From NCBI GenBank assembly GCA_028819845.1, contig JAPPKS010000016.1, positions 1 through 64,000 on the forward strand: a stretch of DNA of 64,000 nucleotides, given 5' to 3'. The position numbers and the translations under genes were made by a program. Position 1 is the first letter of the stretch, and the number at the start of each line of letters is the position of its first letter. Positions 1,141 through 33,304 of this stretch are shown here, piece by piece. Origin of the DNA: Candidatus Poribacteria bacterium (GTDB lineage Bacteria; Poribacteria; WGA-4E; PCPOR2b). The notes beneath the pieces were generated by a model. The model saw nothing but the letters and a program-made list of their open reading frames with translations. It had not been told where the DNA came from and did no database searches.

Positions 1141-2547
1141 TTAAGGATTGGGGGCGACGTTGTCGTCTACCGCGCCGCTGTTGAAGATTGGACAGAGTTC
1201 ACAGAGTTGGCTTTTGCAGAAGTTTTCGTGGAGGTAGATTGCTCCCTGTTGCTTTTTGGCGGTGGGTGAGATGCTCTGGATAGGTTGTTGTTCGGTGAAG
1301 ATTTGGGCGGTAAGGTCTTTGGTTATACGGTTGTCCTGAAGTTTTGGATGGCGGTCGTAGAGTTTTTGAACCGCGTCAGACAATCTGGAACTCTGCGACT
1401 CTTCCGCCCATACAAGCGCCAGCGGCAGCAACGTGTTGATGATAATGTCAGAAGCCCGTGGTTTCCCAATCATTGCCGTTCCCGCCGGTGAAATTCCTTT
1501 CCCAAAATGGGAATGGCTCGACCAGTAACCGGCGGCGGGAATCATTAATAACGCTGACAGTTCACGCCGTATTCGTAGCAAGCCACTCTTGTCAGTCGTG
1601 GCTGCGGCTTCGATGTGGGGAACGAATTCCGCCATCAAGCTATCCGTCCGGGAATTAATCAGCATACCCATCGCGGCGATGCGGCGAGTGGGGTAGTTCG
1701 GCGGCCGCGTGTTTCCGAACCGCCACACATCCCCCGACATTTGATTGGAATTCTCGTATTGCGCAGAAGCAGCCCATAGTGTTTCTAACTGAGATATGAA
1801 CGGTGTATCGGCTTCGCCGGGATGGGGAAACCTAGATTGCGAGGGGAGTAAGCCCGCAACCCCGAGCAGTATCGCTTGAATTTCCTCATTCGACTTGCCC
1901 ATCAGTTGCGAGATGGGAACGCGTTGCGCAAGTTCCCGAAAGGATTCGCGGTTTAATTTGTACCCCAGCGCATCCATGATTCCCGCGTAGAGCAACTGCT
2001 CAAAATCGACCGAAACGCGCAGCGCTTGCATCGCCTCTTTATGCGCGATGAGCCGCTCTTGTCCGAGTTGATCGAAAACCGATTTGAGCGGTTCAATCTT
2101 CAGCCTTCTGCCTGTAATTCGACATTCTAGCCGATCCGCTTTCGGATTTTTGTATTCGTCGATTAGTTCCACCAACGGTGCGTTTAGCCGGCGAGACAGT
2201 TCTAACGTCGGAATCCGATTGCCGTTTTGAGTCCGGGTTCGCAGATTGATATCGTCATCCCAAAAAACAACATGCAGAACGGCGCGGTTATACTTTGAGT
2301 CGAGATGATGCTTGTGATCGTACCAATTGGACGAAGAAACGTGAATCTCAATATCACCCGTTAACAACTTCCCATTGACTAGAATTTCAGCTCCAGCGAA
2401 GTCGGGCCCCTCGTTATGATTCCACTGCCCGGTTTTCAGCACTTGCAAAGTACGTCCGTCCGTCGCCTTCAACTCAAAGTCAAAAAAGCGTCGATCATTC
2501 CATAATTTCTGAACGAGGTTTTCATCAATGTTGCTAAGGTCCGGCAT
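1141..2547 (-). CDS. DUF2851 family protein
   Basis: A 468-residue protein that I recognise as DUF2851, a family of unknown function found in Bacteroidetes and related groups. The N-terminal block around residues 35-75 has the family pattern GxWNxxEGPDF, then a GDIEIHVxxxxW segment, followed by HVVFWDD. The length matches full members. A cysteine group near the C-terminus (FCKSQLCELCPIF) could bind metal or a cluster. There is no signal peptide, so it is probably cytoplasmic. It lies 98 bases downstream of trpG on the same strand and ends at a strong terminator, so it may share the trp transcript, though nothing links it biochemically. No strong ribosome site precedes the ATG. Confidence 0.8.
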   Translation of the reverse strand: MPDLSNIDENLVQKLWNDRRFFDFELKATDGRTLQVLKTGQWNHNEGPDFAGAEILVNGKLLTGDIEIHVSSSNWYDHKHHLDSKYNRAVLHVVFWDDDINLRTRTQNGNRIPTLELSRRLNAPLVELIDEYKNPKADRLECRITGRRLKIEPLKSVFDQLGQERLIAHKEAMQALRVSVDFEQLLYAGIMDALGYKLNRESFRELAQRVPISQLMGKSNEEIQAILLGVAGLLPSQSRFPHPGEADTPFISQLETLWAASAQYENSNQMSGDVWRFGNTRPPNYPTRRIAAMGMLINSRTDSLMAEFVPHIEAAATTDKSGLLRIRRELSALLMIPAAGYWSSHSHFGKGISPAGTAMIGKPRASDIIINTLLPLALVWAEESQSSRLSDAVQKLYDRHPKLQDNRITKDLTAQIFTEQQPIQSISPTAKKQQGAIYLHENFCKSQLCELCPIFNSGAVDDNVAPNP

Positions 2548-2645: not shown

Positions 2646-3209
2646 TTAAATTTGCAAGAAATTTTGCAATAGCGGTTTGCCGGCGTCTGTTAGAATTGAT
2701 TCCGGATGAAATTGCACACCCCAGATTGGATGTTCCAGGTGCCGGATTCCCATAATTTCGTCTTGGTCGGTCCATGCCGTGAGTTTAAAACAGTCTGGCA
2801 GCGTCTCCTTTTTCACGATGAGCGAATGGTAGCGCGTCGCCTCAAACGGGTTTTCCAGATCGTTGAATATTTCCTCGCCGTCGTGGTGAATCATAGATGT
2901 CTTACCGTGCATCAGCCGCTCCGCCCGGACAACGTCGCCGCCGAAGGCTTCGCCGATGCACTGATGCCCCAAGCAGACGCCGAGCAACGGCAAACGGCCG
3001 GCAAAATAACGAATCAACTCGCAGGAGATGCCTGCCTCGCGCGGCGTGCAGGGGCCCGGCGAAATTACAATCTTCTCAGGTGCAATGTCTTCAACCTGTT
3101 CAATAGTAATTTTGTCGTTGCGGTGGACAACAAGATTCGCACCAAGTTCACCGAGATATTGGACGAGATTGTAAGTAAATGAGTCGTAGTTGTCAATCAT
3201 GAGTACCAT
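2646..3209 (-). CDS. trpG: Anthranilate synthase glutamine amidotransferase subunit
   Basis: A 187-residue class I glutamine amidotransferase. It releases ammonia from glutamine and passes it to TrpE to make anthranilate, the first committed step of tryptophan synthesis. The nucleophile is Cys79 in GVCLGHQ, and the rest of the triad is His168 and Glu170 in HPES. The N-terminus ([11 protein letters not shown]) is typical of TrpG/PabA. PabA, the folate enzyme, looks alike, but the position 62 bases behind trpE makes TrpG the better call. AAGGA lies 7 bases before the ATG. It is the last recognised gene of the hisI-trpE-trpG operon under the attenuator at 5246-5410. Confidence 0.93.
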
Positions 3210-3271: not shown

Positions 3272-4756
3272 TTATTCCAATCCCGCCTCCGCAAATTCAA
3301 TGGCTCTCAATCCCGCCTGCGCCTTGTTCAGCGTTTCCTCGAATTCGAATTCGGGTACAGAGTCCGCAACGATCCCGGCGCCAGCCTGGATGTAGGCAAC
3401 ACCGTCCACGACGACGAGGGTACGAATCGTAATCGCCGTGTCTGCGCTGCCGGAGAAACTGAAGTAACCGACCGCGCCCCCGTAGGGTCCCCGCCGGGTC
3501 GGCTCGAGTTCCTCAATAATCTCCATAGCGCGAATTTTCGGTGCGCCGGACAGCGTTCCAGCGGGGAGACAGGCGCGAATGACGTCAAAAGCGGTCTGTC
3601 CCTCGCGCAGTCGCCCTTCGACGTGCGAAGCGATGTGCATTACATGCGAATAGCGTTCGATTACCATCATCTCGCTCACGCGAACCGTGTGGTATTCGCA
3701 GACTCGGCCGAGGTCGTTTCGCCCCAGATCGACGAGCATCACATGTTCGGCGCGTTCTTTCGGATCGGCGAGCAACTCTTCAGCGAGTGCAGCGTCTTCG
3801 GCGGTGGTACGCCCGCGGGGTCTCGTTCCGGCGATTGGTCGGGTCTCTGCGCGCCCGTTCTCTACACGCACCATCATCTCCGGGGAAGCCCCGACGATTT
3901 GGAGGCCGGCGAATTTGAGATAGTACATATAGGGCGAGGGATTGACCGTGCGCAGCGCCCGGTAAATTTCAAAGGCATCGACAGAAATCGGTCGGCTGAA
4001 CCGTTGTGACGGAACGACTTGAATGATGTCCCCCGCGGCGACGTACTCCTTCGCGCGAAGGACGACAGATTCGTAACCTGCTTTCGTGAAATTCGATGTA
4101 ATCTGTTTTTGGGTGTTATCCTCTGGCGCTTTCTTGCCGGGATTCGTGCGAAGCGGACGCTTGAGTTTCGCAATCAACACGTCAATTCGATTGATTGCGT
4201 CTGCATACGCTGCGTCAACATCACCGTCAATATGCGCGTTGGCGATGACCTTAATCCGGTGATTCACATGATCGAAGACCAAGAGCGTATCGGCGGTCAT
4301 GAAATAGCAATCGGGTAAATCCCGGTCATCCTCGGTGCAATCGGGTAATTCTTCGACCAGCCGCACGACATCATAACTGAGGTAGCCCACAACCCCGCCG
4401 TGGAAATGAGGCAGTCCTTCGACGTGCACCGGCTGGTAGCGATTCATCAGCGCTTCAAGCTGCGTGAGCGCGTCCCTTGATTCACACTCGACGATTTTGC
4501 CGGTTCGCACTTCCGTGATTTTAACCTGTTTCCCCTTGCTCTGAAACAGGATGGACGGATTCGCGCCGAGGAAGGAGTAACGAGCGAGATTTTCGCCGCC
4601 TTCGACGCTTTCCAAAAGGAATGCGTACTCATCGCCGCCAATCTTGTAAAATGCGGATACCGGGGTCTCCATGTCCGCCAAGATGGATTTGTAAACGGGA
4701 ATCAAATTACCGTATTGCGCTTTTTCCCGAAAATCTTTCAAAGTCGGGTAATACAT
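3272..4756 (-). CDS. trpE: Anthranilate synthase component I
   Basis: A 494-residue chorismate-binding enzyme that converts chorismate and ammonia, supplied by TrpG, to anthranilate and pyruvate. The N-terminal LLES motif at residues 47-50 is the tryptophan-binding element of feedback-inhibited TrpE, so allosteric control is expected. The catalytic C-terminal half has SPYMYYL, GTRPRG and [17 protein letters not shown] blocks and is full length. AAGGAG lies 8 bases before the ATG. The gene is 78 bases behind hisI and 62 bases ahead of trpG. Two small hairpins sit in the hisI-trpE gap. PabB and isochorismate synthase are less likely because of LLES and the neighbours. Confidence 0.95.
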
Positions 4757-4834: not shown

Positions 4835-5218
4835 TTACGAATAAACTGCGCCCGGGTCAAAAACTTTCGTACCAACGATGCGTGCCGAATTGCCGTTGGG
4901 GGAGACTTCCCGGAAAAAACAGGAGCGGTACCCTACGTGGCATGCCCCGCCTTTCTGCACGACCTTGATGAGAAGCGTGTCCGCATCGCAATCGAAAGCT
5001 AGCGAGCGTACATCTTGGGTGTGCCCCGAAGTCTCCCCCTTTACCCAGTATTTCTGGCGGGAGCGGCTCCAGAACGTGACGCGCCCTGATTCAAGCGTTC
5101 GCCGCACCGCTTCTCGGTTCATGTAACCCATCATCAGTACGTCGTTGTTCTCGTAATCTTGTATGATTGCCGGGATGAGTCCGTTTGAATCGAATTTGAG
5201 TTCGTCAAGCATTTGCAT
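4835..5218 (-). CDS. hisI: Phosphoribosyl-AMP cyclohydrolase
   Basis: A 127-residue stand-alone HisI that opens the adenine ring of phosphoribosyl-AMP in histidine synthesis. DCDAD at residues 76-80 gives the magnesium-binding aspartates. Cys77, Cys93 and Cys100 (in CHVGYRSC) are the expected zinc ligands. There is no fused HisE domain. A longer frame is open upstream, but the ATG at 5218 is chosen because AGGAGG lies 9 bases before it, and the extra residues would be encoded by the terminator region. It is the first structural gene after the leader attenuator and is followed by trpE and trpG. This unusual his-trp mixture matches the leader peptide, which contains both Trp and His codons. Confidence 0.93.
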
Positions 5219-5245
5219 CGAGATTTTCCTCCTAACAGTTGGCAT

Positions 5246-5284
5246 AAAAAAAGCCGTAGACAACGGGACGTATGCCTACGGCTT
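5246..5284 (-). terminator. Attenuator terminator of the hisI-trpEG operon
   Basis: On the minus strand a 9-bp perfect stem (AAGCCGTAG with CTACGGCTT, 16-base loop) runs into seven T residues (AAGCC side 5284-5276, CTACGG side 5259-5251). It lies between the leader peptide stop and the hisI ribosome site, with no gene before it except the leader peptide. This is the position of an amino-acid attenuator. Confidence 0.88.
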
Positions 5285-5334
5285 AAAACTATCAAATGAA
5301 TGCGAATTCTATTTCAGCAAAGGCATACTCCTCC
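5270..5334 (-). promoter_or_regulatory. Antiterminator pairing of the leader
   Basis: On the minus strand GTATGCCT (5328-5321), at the end of the leader peptide, is an exact 8-base complement of AGGCATAC (5277-5270). The latter covers the end of the ascending stem and part of the loop of the terminator. Pairing would prevent the terminator. Upstream, CTCCTCC in the leader codons complements GGAGGAG (5334-5328), and GGCAT within the Trp-His codons complements ATGCC. Together these give the classical 1:2, 2:3 and 3:4 alternatives. The complements are read directly; the switching is inferred. Confidence 0.75.
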
Positions 5335-5410
5335 CACTCCAGATTGAATGCCACCAATGCCAGTTATGTGTTGCCGTATTGGAATGGAGGAGGAGATTCG
5401 AAAATTTCAT
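5309..5410 (-). CDS. trpL: Leader peptide rich in Trp and His
   Basis: A 33-codon open frame, ATG at 5410 and TAG ending at 5309, whose centre reads HNWHWWHSIW. It has four Trp codons (residues 17, 19, 20, 24) and four His codons (residues 9, 15, 18, 21). Weak AAGG elements precede the ATG. The Trp/His cluster lies just before the segment that can form the antiterminator, so a ribosome stalled for charged tRNA-Trp or tRNA-His would free that segment and let RNA polymerase continue into hisI-trpE-trpG. Ordinary trp leaders contain only Trp runs. The mixture fits an operon that carries both a his and trp genes. The family logic is established for enteric attenuators; its operation here is inferred. 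Confidence 0.88.
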   Translation of the reverse strand: MKFSNLLLHSNTATHNWHWWHSIWSGRSMPLLK

Positions 5411-5441
5411 CAGCCTTGCCTTTCGCTGCTATTTGCTAAAG

Positions 5442-5469
5442 GGTATCATAACCGGGATTTGTGTGTCAA
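5442..5469 (-). promoter_or_regulatory. Candidate promoter of the leader and hisI-trpE-trpG
   Basis: On the minus strand a perfect TTGACA (5469-5464) is followed by an AT-rich segment TTATGATACC. The -10 placement is ambiguous: GATACC gives a 16-base spacer and TGATAC 15. The position, about 30 bases before the leader ATG, is right for an attenuated operon. Confidence 0.55.
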
Positions 5470-5702
5470 GGAAAAACCGGCGGCGCGCAAATCTCAACGT
5501 AATATTACTTGAATCACTATGAAAAAGAGCGATTGACGGGGCGATTCATGTGTAGATGTGATTGCCGTATTTTATGTTAGATTAACCGAATGATGACTCA
5601 ACGGCATCGCTCTGCTAGCCGAAAACTCCTTACACACATTTCGGTAGGTGCGGTTTTCAACCACGGGGCAAATACATTCATAAATGAAAAAACAAGAGAG
5701 AA

Positions 5703-32000: not shown

Positions 32001-33304
32001 TAGTCTTGATTTCTATCAAACCGTGTTGTCATCGCGGCTGCATGTCCGTCCAAGCCTTCCACCTGCGCCAGTTTGACCACGGCGGGGGTCACCTTTTTTA
32101 GAGCCGACTCGGTATAAGAGATGACGCTGGTCTTCTTAAGAAAATCGTCGACGTTCAACGGAGAAGCGTATCGCGCTGCACCCCCTGTAGGAAGAATGTG
32201 ATTGGGTCCTGCGATATAATCGCCAACGGATTCCGGTGTGTAAGGTCCCACCAATATTGCGCCTGCATTGCGAATTTCGCCAATCCACTCAAATGGGCGC
32301 TCCACTTCCAACTCAATGTGTTCAGGAGCGATTGCATTTGCCAGATTGATTGCTGCTGCCAAATCGGGGACGACCAGCGCGGCGCTGTGGTTCTCAAACG
32401 CGCCTGTAAGTTCAGACTGGCGCGGCAGTACTTTCGTCTGTAATTCTACCTCTTTTCGAACCTGTTCTGCGAGCGTTCTTGACGGCGTCACAAGAATGGC
32501 GGAGCTATCTTCACTGTGTTCTGCCTGAGAGATTAAATCTGCTGCGATGAAAGCCGGTTCCGCGCTCTGGTCGGCGATAACGAGGACTTCACTCGGACCC
32601 GCCAATTTGTCAATGTCGACCATACCGTAGACCTCTTTCTTGGCGAGTTGGACAAATGAGTTTCCCGGCCCGACAATCTTGTCTACTTTTGGCAAAGTTT
32701 CCGTTCCATAAGCCATTGCCGCGACAGCTTGGGCGCCGCCGCACTTGTAAACCTCCTGAACGCCGCATTCCGCCGCCGCAACAAGCATATGCGGATTAAT
32801 CTTGCGATTCCGCATGGGCCCCATGAATACGGCAATCTCTTCAACGCCGGCAACCTTTGCAGGCACCACGTTCATGATGAGCGACGAAACCAACAGCTGA
32901 CTTACAGAAGGAACGCATACGCCGACACGCTTCAATGGGCGAATCATATGCCCTAAAAGGACACCGTTTTCTTCGGCGGTGAACCATGAATTTCGTAACT
33001 GCTTCCGATGAAATCTTTCGATATTTTGCCGGGCAAGCCTGACCGCATCAATGAATTCCCGATCGACATGCGACTGTGCGTCGTCGAATTCTTTTGCTTT
33101 TACCCGTAGGTCTTTTACGGCTATTCTCGGCGCATCAAACTTGCGTGTATACTTGATTACGGCGGCGTCCCCATTTTTACGAACATCTTGTAATATGCGG
33201 CGTACCGTTTTCAAAATTACTTCATCGTCGAGTCGTCCGCGCAGGTTTAACCGATTTATGAACTCTTGCGCTTCTTCGGTATGGGCTTCAAAAATTTTTA
33301 ACAT
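32000..33304 (-). CDS. hisD: Histidinol dehydrogenase
   Basis: A 434-residue enzyme that carries out the last two oxidations of histidine synthesis, from L-histidinol to histidine, using NAD. GPGNSFVQLAKKEVYGMVDIDKLAGPSE and ADLISQAEHSEDS are conserved family blocks with the zinc-binding and catalytic residues. AAGGAG lies 7 bases before the ATG. It is alone here, far from hisI and from any his cluster, so his genes are dispersed in this genome. The TAA stop is formed at the junction with the MITE-like element at 31757-32000, which might have replaced the original end. No leader peptide with His codons is visible in its 5' region. Confidence 0.95.
   Translation of the reverse strand: MLKIFEAHTEEAQEFINRLNLRGRLDDEVILKTVRRILQDVRKNGDAAVIKYTRKFDAPRIAVKDLRVKAKEFDDAQSHVDREFIDAVRLARQNIERFHRKQLRNSWFTAEENGVLLGHMIRPLKRVGVCVPSVSQLLVSSLIMNVVPAKVAGVEEIAVFMGPMRNRKINPHMLVAAAECGVQEVYKCGGAQAVAAMAYGTETLPKVDKIVGPGNSFVQLAKKEVYGMVDIDKLAGPSEVLVIADQSAEPAFIAADLISQAEHSEDSSAILVTPSRTLAEQVRKEVELQTKVLPRQSELTGAFENHSAALVVPDLAAAINLANAIAPEHIELEVERPFEWIGEIRNAGAILVGPYTPESVGDYIAGPNHILPTGGAARYASPLNVDDFLKKTSVISYTESALKKVTPAVVKLAQVEGLDGHAAAMTTRFDRNQD

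Follow-up and report, generated by a model that had tools for sequence, protein, structure and literature searches.

The window, that is, the whole stretch of 64,000 nucleotides analysed here, belongs to a 4.6-Mb genome. Among named organisms, Candidatus Poribacteria have the nearest relatives of its TrpE. On its minus strand it carries, in this order, a candidate promoter, a leader ORF, a terminator and the genes hisI, trpE and trpG, followed by a DUF2851 gene. The hisI gene (4835..5218, minus) encodes phosphoribosyl-AMP cyclohydrolase (Pfam PRA-CH, E 5.8e-36); its start codon, the ATG at 5216..5218, was chosen from homology, and a ribosome site, AGGAGG, is found at 5228..5233 (minus). Next come trpE (3272..4756, minus), for anthranilate synthase component I (Pfam PF00425, E 9.9e-95, and PF04715), and trpG (2646..3209, minus), for the glutamine amidotransferase component of the same enzyme (Pfam GATase, E 2e-63), the assignment to trpG resting on its position after trpE. 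The DUF2851 gene (1141..2547, minus) lies about 100 bases 3' of trpG on the same strand.

Upstream of hisI there is a leader peptide ORF of 33 codons (complement(5309..5410), minus), which reads directly as MKFSNLLLHSNTATHNWHWWHSIWSGRSMPLLK* and whose orthologues were recognised in 74 of the 85 Poribacteria genomes. The Trp codons are numbers 17, 19, 20 and 24 and the His codons numbers 9, 15, 18 and 21, in agreement with the original prediction of a 33-residue leader with four codons of each kind in front of hisI-trpE-trpG. The central run CAT AAC TGG CAT TGG TGG CAT TCA ATC TGG (HNWHWWHSIW; 5339..5368, minus), which had been credited with all of them, does hold the four Trp codons but only three of the His codons, the fourth being codon 9. 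A composition test on the window leader alone, with assumed frequencies, gives p of about 0.0009 for at least four Trp in 33 codons and 0.005 for at least four His. For a single leader this is only moderate evidence, and it is the comparison across genomes that decides against chance. The ORF is predicted to be translated, and as a short reading frame whose control codons are cognate to the operon products it has the form expected of an attenuator leader. Both amino acids that would be sensed are products of pathways served by the operon, one through hisI and the other through trpE and trpG.

A candidate promoter of the sigma-70 type precedes the leader (5440..5469, minus), with TTGACA at 5464..5469, an 18-nt spacer and TACCCT at 5440..5445, and with a TG one base 5' of the -10 hexamer. 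It is missing from the list of the consensus scanner, so that it rests on comparison with relatives and not on score: similar TTGACA-N17/18-TATNNT motifs are found at the equivalent place in relatives of families f1 and f3. From this promoter we infer a transcription start near 5433. The TTGACA-type motif recurs upstream of the leader and would place the start there; a start downstream of the leader had been named by the original prediction as counting against the whole idea.

The RNA made from this region can be divided into the four segments of a classical switch. Segment 1, the protector arm (CTCCTCCTCCATTCC; 5381..5395, minus), lies 5' of the control codons; when the leader is folded as a whole, its predicted partner is 5328..5341, with CTCCTCC/GGAGGAG pairing between segment 1 and the neighbourhood of segment 2. 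Segment 2 (5321..5341, minus) consists of TGGAGTGGGAGGAG, the partner of segment 1, overlapping GTATGCCT (5321..5328), the partner of segment 3. Segment 3 (AGGCATAC; 5270..5277, minus) is the exact 8-base complement of GTATGCCT that had been described as the antiterminator complement, and since it is located within the 5' arm of the terminator, antiterminator and terminator are mutually exclusive. The 3:4 intrinsic terminator (5246..5284, minus) comprises AAGCCGTAGGCATACGTCCCGTTGTCTACGGCTT together with seven consecutive T (5246..5252). Its hairpin (5251..5284) has the 9-bp stem AAGCCGTAG/CTACGGCTT anticipated ahead of the hisI ribosome site, and the predicted fold is longer, with 12+3 pairs around one bulge and -19.7 kcal/mol. 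In the window, an intrinsic terminator is in place between the leader ORF and the first structural gene. The predicted fold of the 185-nt window leader is more stable than those of its shuffled versions (z -3.06). All of the 1:2, 2:3 and 3:4 pairings that the original prediction had proposed for a folding check were found in predicted folds, and the mutual exclusion of 2:3 and 3:4 predicted by them is what a ribosome-mediated attenuator demands.

In order to see how a ribosome would act on this switch, an assumed ribosome footprint was masked at each codon, and the RNA between ribosome and polymerase was folded once segment 3 had been made. In this stall model, P(2:3) for the window is 0.99 with the ribosome at His15, Trp17, His18, Trp19, Trp20 or His21, it is 0.84 at Trp24, and it is 0 from codon 26 through the stop codon; for every codon of the control run the value falls within 0.84-0.99. 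By this model, then, His and Trp codons would be equivalent stall sites. The control codons are suitably placed in the sense that a stall on them is predicted to free segment 2, which would be covered by a ribosome that has reached the stop codon, and codons for two amino acids fall inside the modelled stall window, as is expected of a multivalent attenuator. For two relatives (G005 and G057) the favourable stretch begins at or just 5' of the core and ends a few codons past it. In other leaders it also reaches further upstream; the core is inside the stretch, and the left edge is not always defined by the core. G064 has a weaker P(2:3) of 0.56-0.57, its stretch opening at its His codon.

In the mechanism that we propose, transcription would begin just 5' of the leader, and a ribosome would start on the leader peptide. 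When Trp or His is scarce, this ribosome would stall on the interleaved TGG and CAT codons between segments 1 and 2 and block the 1:2 protector, segment 2 would pair with segment 3, and read-through into hisI-trpEG would result. When Trp and His are both plentiful, a ribosome at the stop codon would cover segment 2, the 3:4 terminator would form, and transcription would end before hisI. With no translation the 1:2 pairing could form, and termination would be the default. The sensor would in this way act as an OR gate across two pathways.

We now consider the hisI-trpE region in 85 Poribacteria genomes. The leader ORF with its Trp core stands before hisI in 70 of the 74 genomes that have it and directly before trpE in the other 4, and a hairpin with a T-run follows it in nearly all of the 74, the terminator of G069 having been missed by automatic calling. 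A leader conserved in 74 genomes is not a matter of chance. Close relatives have retained the open frame; its loss there, or that of the Trp/His run, which had been put forward as decisive against the attenuator, was not found. The word TGGCAYTGG is meaningless as a signal by itself, with 83 occurrences genome-wide and 85 for the reversed control. Among the 11 genomes with no recognised leader, the locus is truncated by contig ends in four (G012, G040, G078 and G063), and three (G065, G068 and G077) are without a usable hisI-trpE locus. In G016, G046, G071 and G062 upstream sequence is present and no recognisable leader was seen in it; hisI-trpE is there in G016 (L214), G046 (L206) and G071 (L203), and in G046 and G071 another coding region seems to end closely upstream of hisI, as if a rearrangement had removed the leader.

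A few individual loci deserve mention. In two leaders before hisI, L126 (G082) and L134 (G084), an in-frame insertion divides the control run between WH and WW. The insertion contains a near-perfect palindrome, AATTCTGCCC...GGGCAGAATT, and yields EHWQCEAKTNSARVGRIWWH, and it leaves the frame and the downstream switch segments intact. Short repeats or palindromes are found between the terminator and hisI in L019 (G051), L020 (G022), L003 (G003), L005 (G001) and L211 (G030); they are of the type that small mobile elements carry, and they widen the gap with the switch untouched. G037 has two hisI loci (L127 and L175) with distinct leaders, one of f1 type and one of f3 type, which most likely reflects contamination of the metagenome bin.

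The alternative pairings can be followed through the families as well. In f3, segments 1:2 are paired in 94% of cells, 2:3 in 97% and 3:4 in 99%, with every slid control lower, and the f3 counterpart of the window protector is CACACTCC/GGAGTGTG, paired in 94% of cells. Inside one family the paired segments are nearly invariant and there are few compensatory changes. Because the letters vary so little there, the weight for the pairing rests on the comparison between families, in which the 2:3 pairing is retained with different sequences across f1, f3, f4, f5, f7, f9 and f10. Examples are GTGTGCG/TGCACAC in f3, AGTGTGCCTGTG/CGTAGGCATACT in f4, GGAGCGTGCCCG/CGGGCATGCTCC in f5, CTCGGTG/CACCGAG and TGGGGTGT/GCACCCCA in f7, and AGTGTGTCCA/TGGATACACT in f9. 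These cross-family pairings were taken from the best-helix table; one fixed 6-mer register for the 2:3 helix across all families was also tried and was rejected, as it mis-registers several sequences. Where the protector helix is clear (the window, most of f3, f5 and f8), segment 1 ends about 19-25 nt 5' of the core, which means that a ribosome on the core sits between both arms. Together with the stall model, the 2:3 pairing across families lends strong support to the Trp attenuator that had been read from the window.

The order of Trp and His in the core differs between families, being HWHWW in f1-f3, HHHWCWWH in f8, HICWWPWW in f5, and WWWHW, WRHWHW, HWHWGW or HRHW in f7, from which it follows that the amino-acid mixture is conserved and not a single DNA word. 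This bears on another possible switch, in which a nascent HWHWW peptide would arrest the ribosome, perhaps on free Trp or another ligand as in TnaC, with no role for slow decoding. The single core WHWW is indeed highly conserved in f1-f3, which speaks for such a peptide. However, other families have the same RNA layout with different cores (HHHWCWWH, WWWHW, HICWWPWW, HRHWRR), which fits decoding, and what is common to the families is only the Trp and His codon classes, matching the downstream genes. We consider an arrest peptide very improbable.

The remaining question concerns the His codons. In all 70 leaders before hisI the 11-codon core contains one or more His, and in 62 of these leaders a His stands between two Trp; the codon share in the 70 is 11.5% for His and 8.9% for Trp. 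The four leaders directly before trpE (G011, G014, G059 and G060) belong to genomes in which hisI is elsewhere or was not found. No His codon is present in those of G014 (RWWYTSW), G059 (WRWWWR) and G060 (WCWWW), and that of G011 (RWRH) has one. They represent two separate lineages in the TrpE tree. Since G016, the sister of G011 and G014, retains hisI-trpE, hisI has probably left the operon in the G011/G014 family. The hisI found elsewhere in G011 and G014 shares about 45% identity with that of the window and is a separate copy, and no His leader was seen near the relocated hisI of G011, G014 and G060. When each genus is counted once and seven Trp-run ORFs from other phyla are added, 11 of the 14 genera that have hisI show a His flanked by Trp on both sides, as against 0 of the 10 that lack it (Fisher 0.00015); this value overstates the evidence, the genera being non-independent. 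The association of His codons with hisI supports a sensing of histidine, although it depends on two changes in the tree and a single His persists in G011. The idea that histidine acts at the same site as tryptophan, advanced from the window with some reserve, thus finds support in relatives that conserve both kinds of codon and in trpE-only leaders that keep Trp with no His in three of the four and one in G011.

A Trp-only attenuator has also to be considered, in which the His codons would be kept by RNA structure, the TGGCAT and CATTGG words pairing within the leader, with no sensing of histidine. Codon usage gives some ground for this. The core His codons of f3 are CAT in 118 of 119 cases (118:1 over CAC), compared with a CAT share of 69% for the hisI and trpE genes that these genomes carry and of 87-89% for two His columns conserved in hisI, and in f1 the ratio CAT:CAC is 27:4, with CAT beyond the usage of the neighbouring genes. 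In f3 a hairpin of five pairs, ATTGG/CCAAT, reaches across the core and is paired in 93% of cells, and in f1 GGCAT or GGCAC is able to pair with RTGCC of segment 2. To a degree, then, RNA structure appears to constrain the CAT letters of f3. However, the helices between core and segment 2 are mostly no better than with shuffled cores, and the f3 hairpin limits positions 2 and 3 of the codon, leaving unexplained the first C, which makes the codon His. Structure also leaves unexplained why f1 has both CAT and CAC for the His of its WHW, why His is placed elsewhere and in other sequence contexts in f7 and f8, and why it is absent or reduced where hisI is absent. On balance we regard this explanation as unlikely.

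If the His codons of a Trp-only attenuator were instead functionless relics of shared descent, one would point to the fact that f3, whose members are related, gives most of the leaders, and again to the only two changes of hisI adjacency on the tree. The third codon positions of hisI are, however, just 61% identical among f3 genomes, which implies enough time for drift. Drift is indeed seen in the codon that precedes the first Trp of the core (CAT, GAT, TAT, AAC, CGC), whereas of the 62 f1-f3 leaders that lack the G082/G084 insertion only one (G058) has a change in the His that separates the first Trp of the core from the second. There is little to recommend descent as the explanation, and sensing of both amino acids is the reading that we prefer.

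It should be pointed out that the genomic setting of this proposed dual sensing is odd. No convincing His-rich leader was seen at hisG, hisD or hisA/F in ten genomes, which implies that histidine control would act through a single step of a scattered pathway. In the window, hisD is at 32018..33238 (minus), about 27 kb from hisI, and hisG and hisA/F are on other contigs. Outside the phylum, hisI-trpE in Omnitrophota, Firestonebacteria and Goldbacteria showed no Trp/His leader before hisI. A dual HisA/TrpF enzyme (PriA) replacing a missing trpF was discarded as the cause of dual control, as TrpF-family genes (PF00697) are present in 82 of 85 genomes, with two in G000. In the f3 genus g8 most genomes have a single PRAI-type match (about 113 bits), as against two, of about 165 and 105 bits, in f1 and others. 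In a published attenuation model, non-cognate codons in the control region reduce sensitivity (PMC1183508), which makes it less likely that the interleaved His codons are idle.

It is instructive to compare the leader with known systems. The hisL leader of E. coli and Salmonella has seven consecutive His codons, and the multivalent attenuators of ilvGMEDA and thr respond to Ile/Val/Leu and to Thr/Ile, respectively. With hisL the present leader shares His control codons before a his gene and the 1:2 / 2:3 / 3:4 logic; however, hisL has a pure His run before a full his operon, whereas the Poribacteria leader mixes His with Trp before hisI only, the other his genes examined having no such leader. 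As in ilvGMEDA and thr, one leader has control codons for several amino acids, which would give an OR-type response. The amino acids of ilvGMEDA and thr are made by related pathways with shared or branched steps, whereas here two separate pathways, linked mainly by the use of PRPP, are joined via operon content. The trp leaders (trpL of E. coli and those of Corynebacterium and Streptomyces) are alike in the Trp-codon peptide, the alternative antiterminator and terminator, and the intrinsic terminator before trp genes. They are known to use runs of Trp codons, described as double or triple ones in actinobacteria (PMC1262725), whereas the Poribacteria leader interleaves His and has hisI as its first gene. 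A reference for the ilvGMEDA attenuator is cited in PMC3783181.

No Rfam leader family reached its gathering score in the window, and none was seen even at E<=10 over 5200..5520; an osmY match (E 0.0019, half the gathering score) was set aside because it resembles the terminator and ribosome site. The open-access literature, to which the search was confined, yielded no leader whose control codons are for Trp as well as His and no report of classical attenuation in Poribacteria. To our knowledge, the leaders that sense more than one amino acid all serve one branched or related pathway.

What the analysis shows is the anatomy of the locus, its conservation, the alternative pairings, the stall window by computation, and the link between His codons and a neighbouring hisI; where transcription starts, that ribosomes stall, and how the switch responds to either amino acid are inferred. 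That the element is an attenuator is nearly certain, and that the leader senses Trp is very likely. Comparison makes it likely that His is sensed too, and we would accordingly give good odds to hisI-trpE-trpG being controlled by a dual, ribosome-mediated attenuator that reads charged tRNA-Trp and tRNA-His. With slightly less assurance, we think it probable that this is a two-pathway OR gate throughout the phylum, in which codon content follows operon content and His codons erode when hisI leaves. If this is true, nature would here provide an example of a leader peptide that acquires or gives up its response to a second amino acid. Such a leader, which places two separate pathways under one control and whose codons change with the genes of the operon throughout a phylum, would show the evolutionary rewiring of attenuators, and about 70 natural variants are available for a study of how mixed control codons determine sensitivity. 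The finding also puts classical attenuation in Poribacteria.
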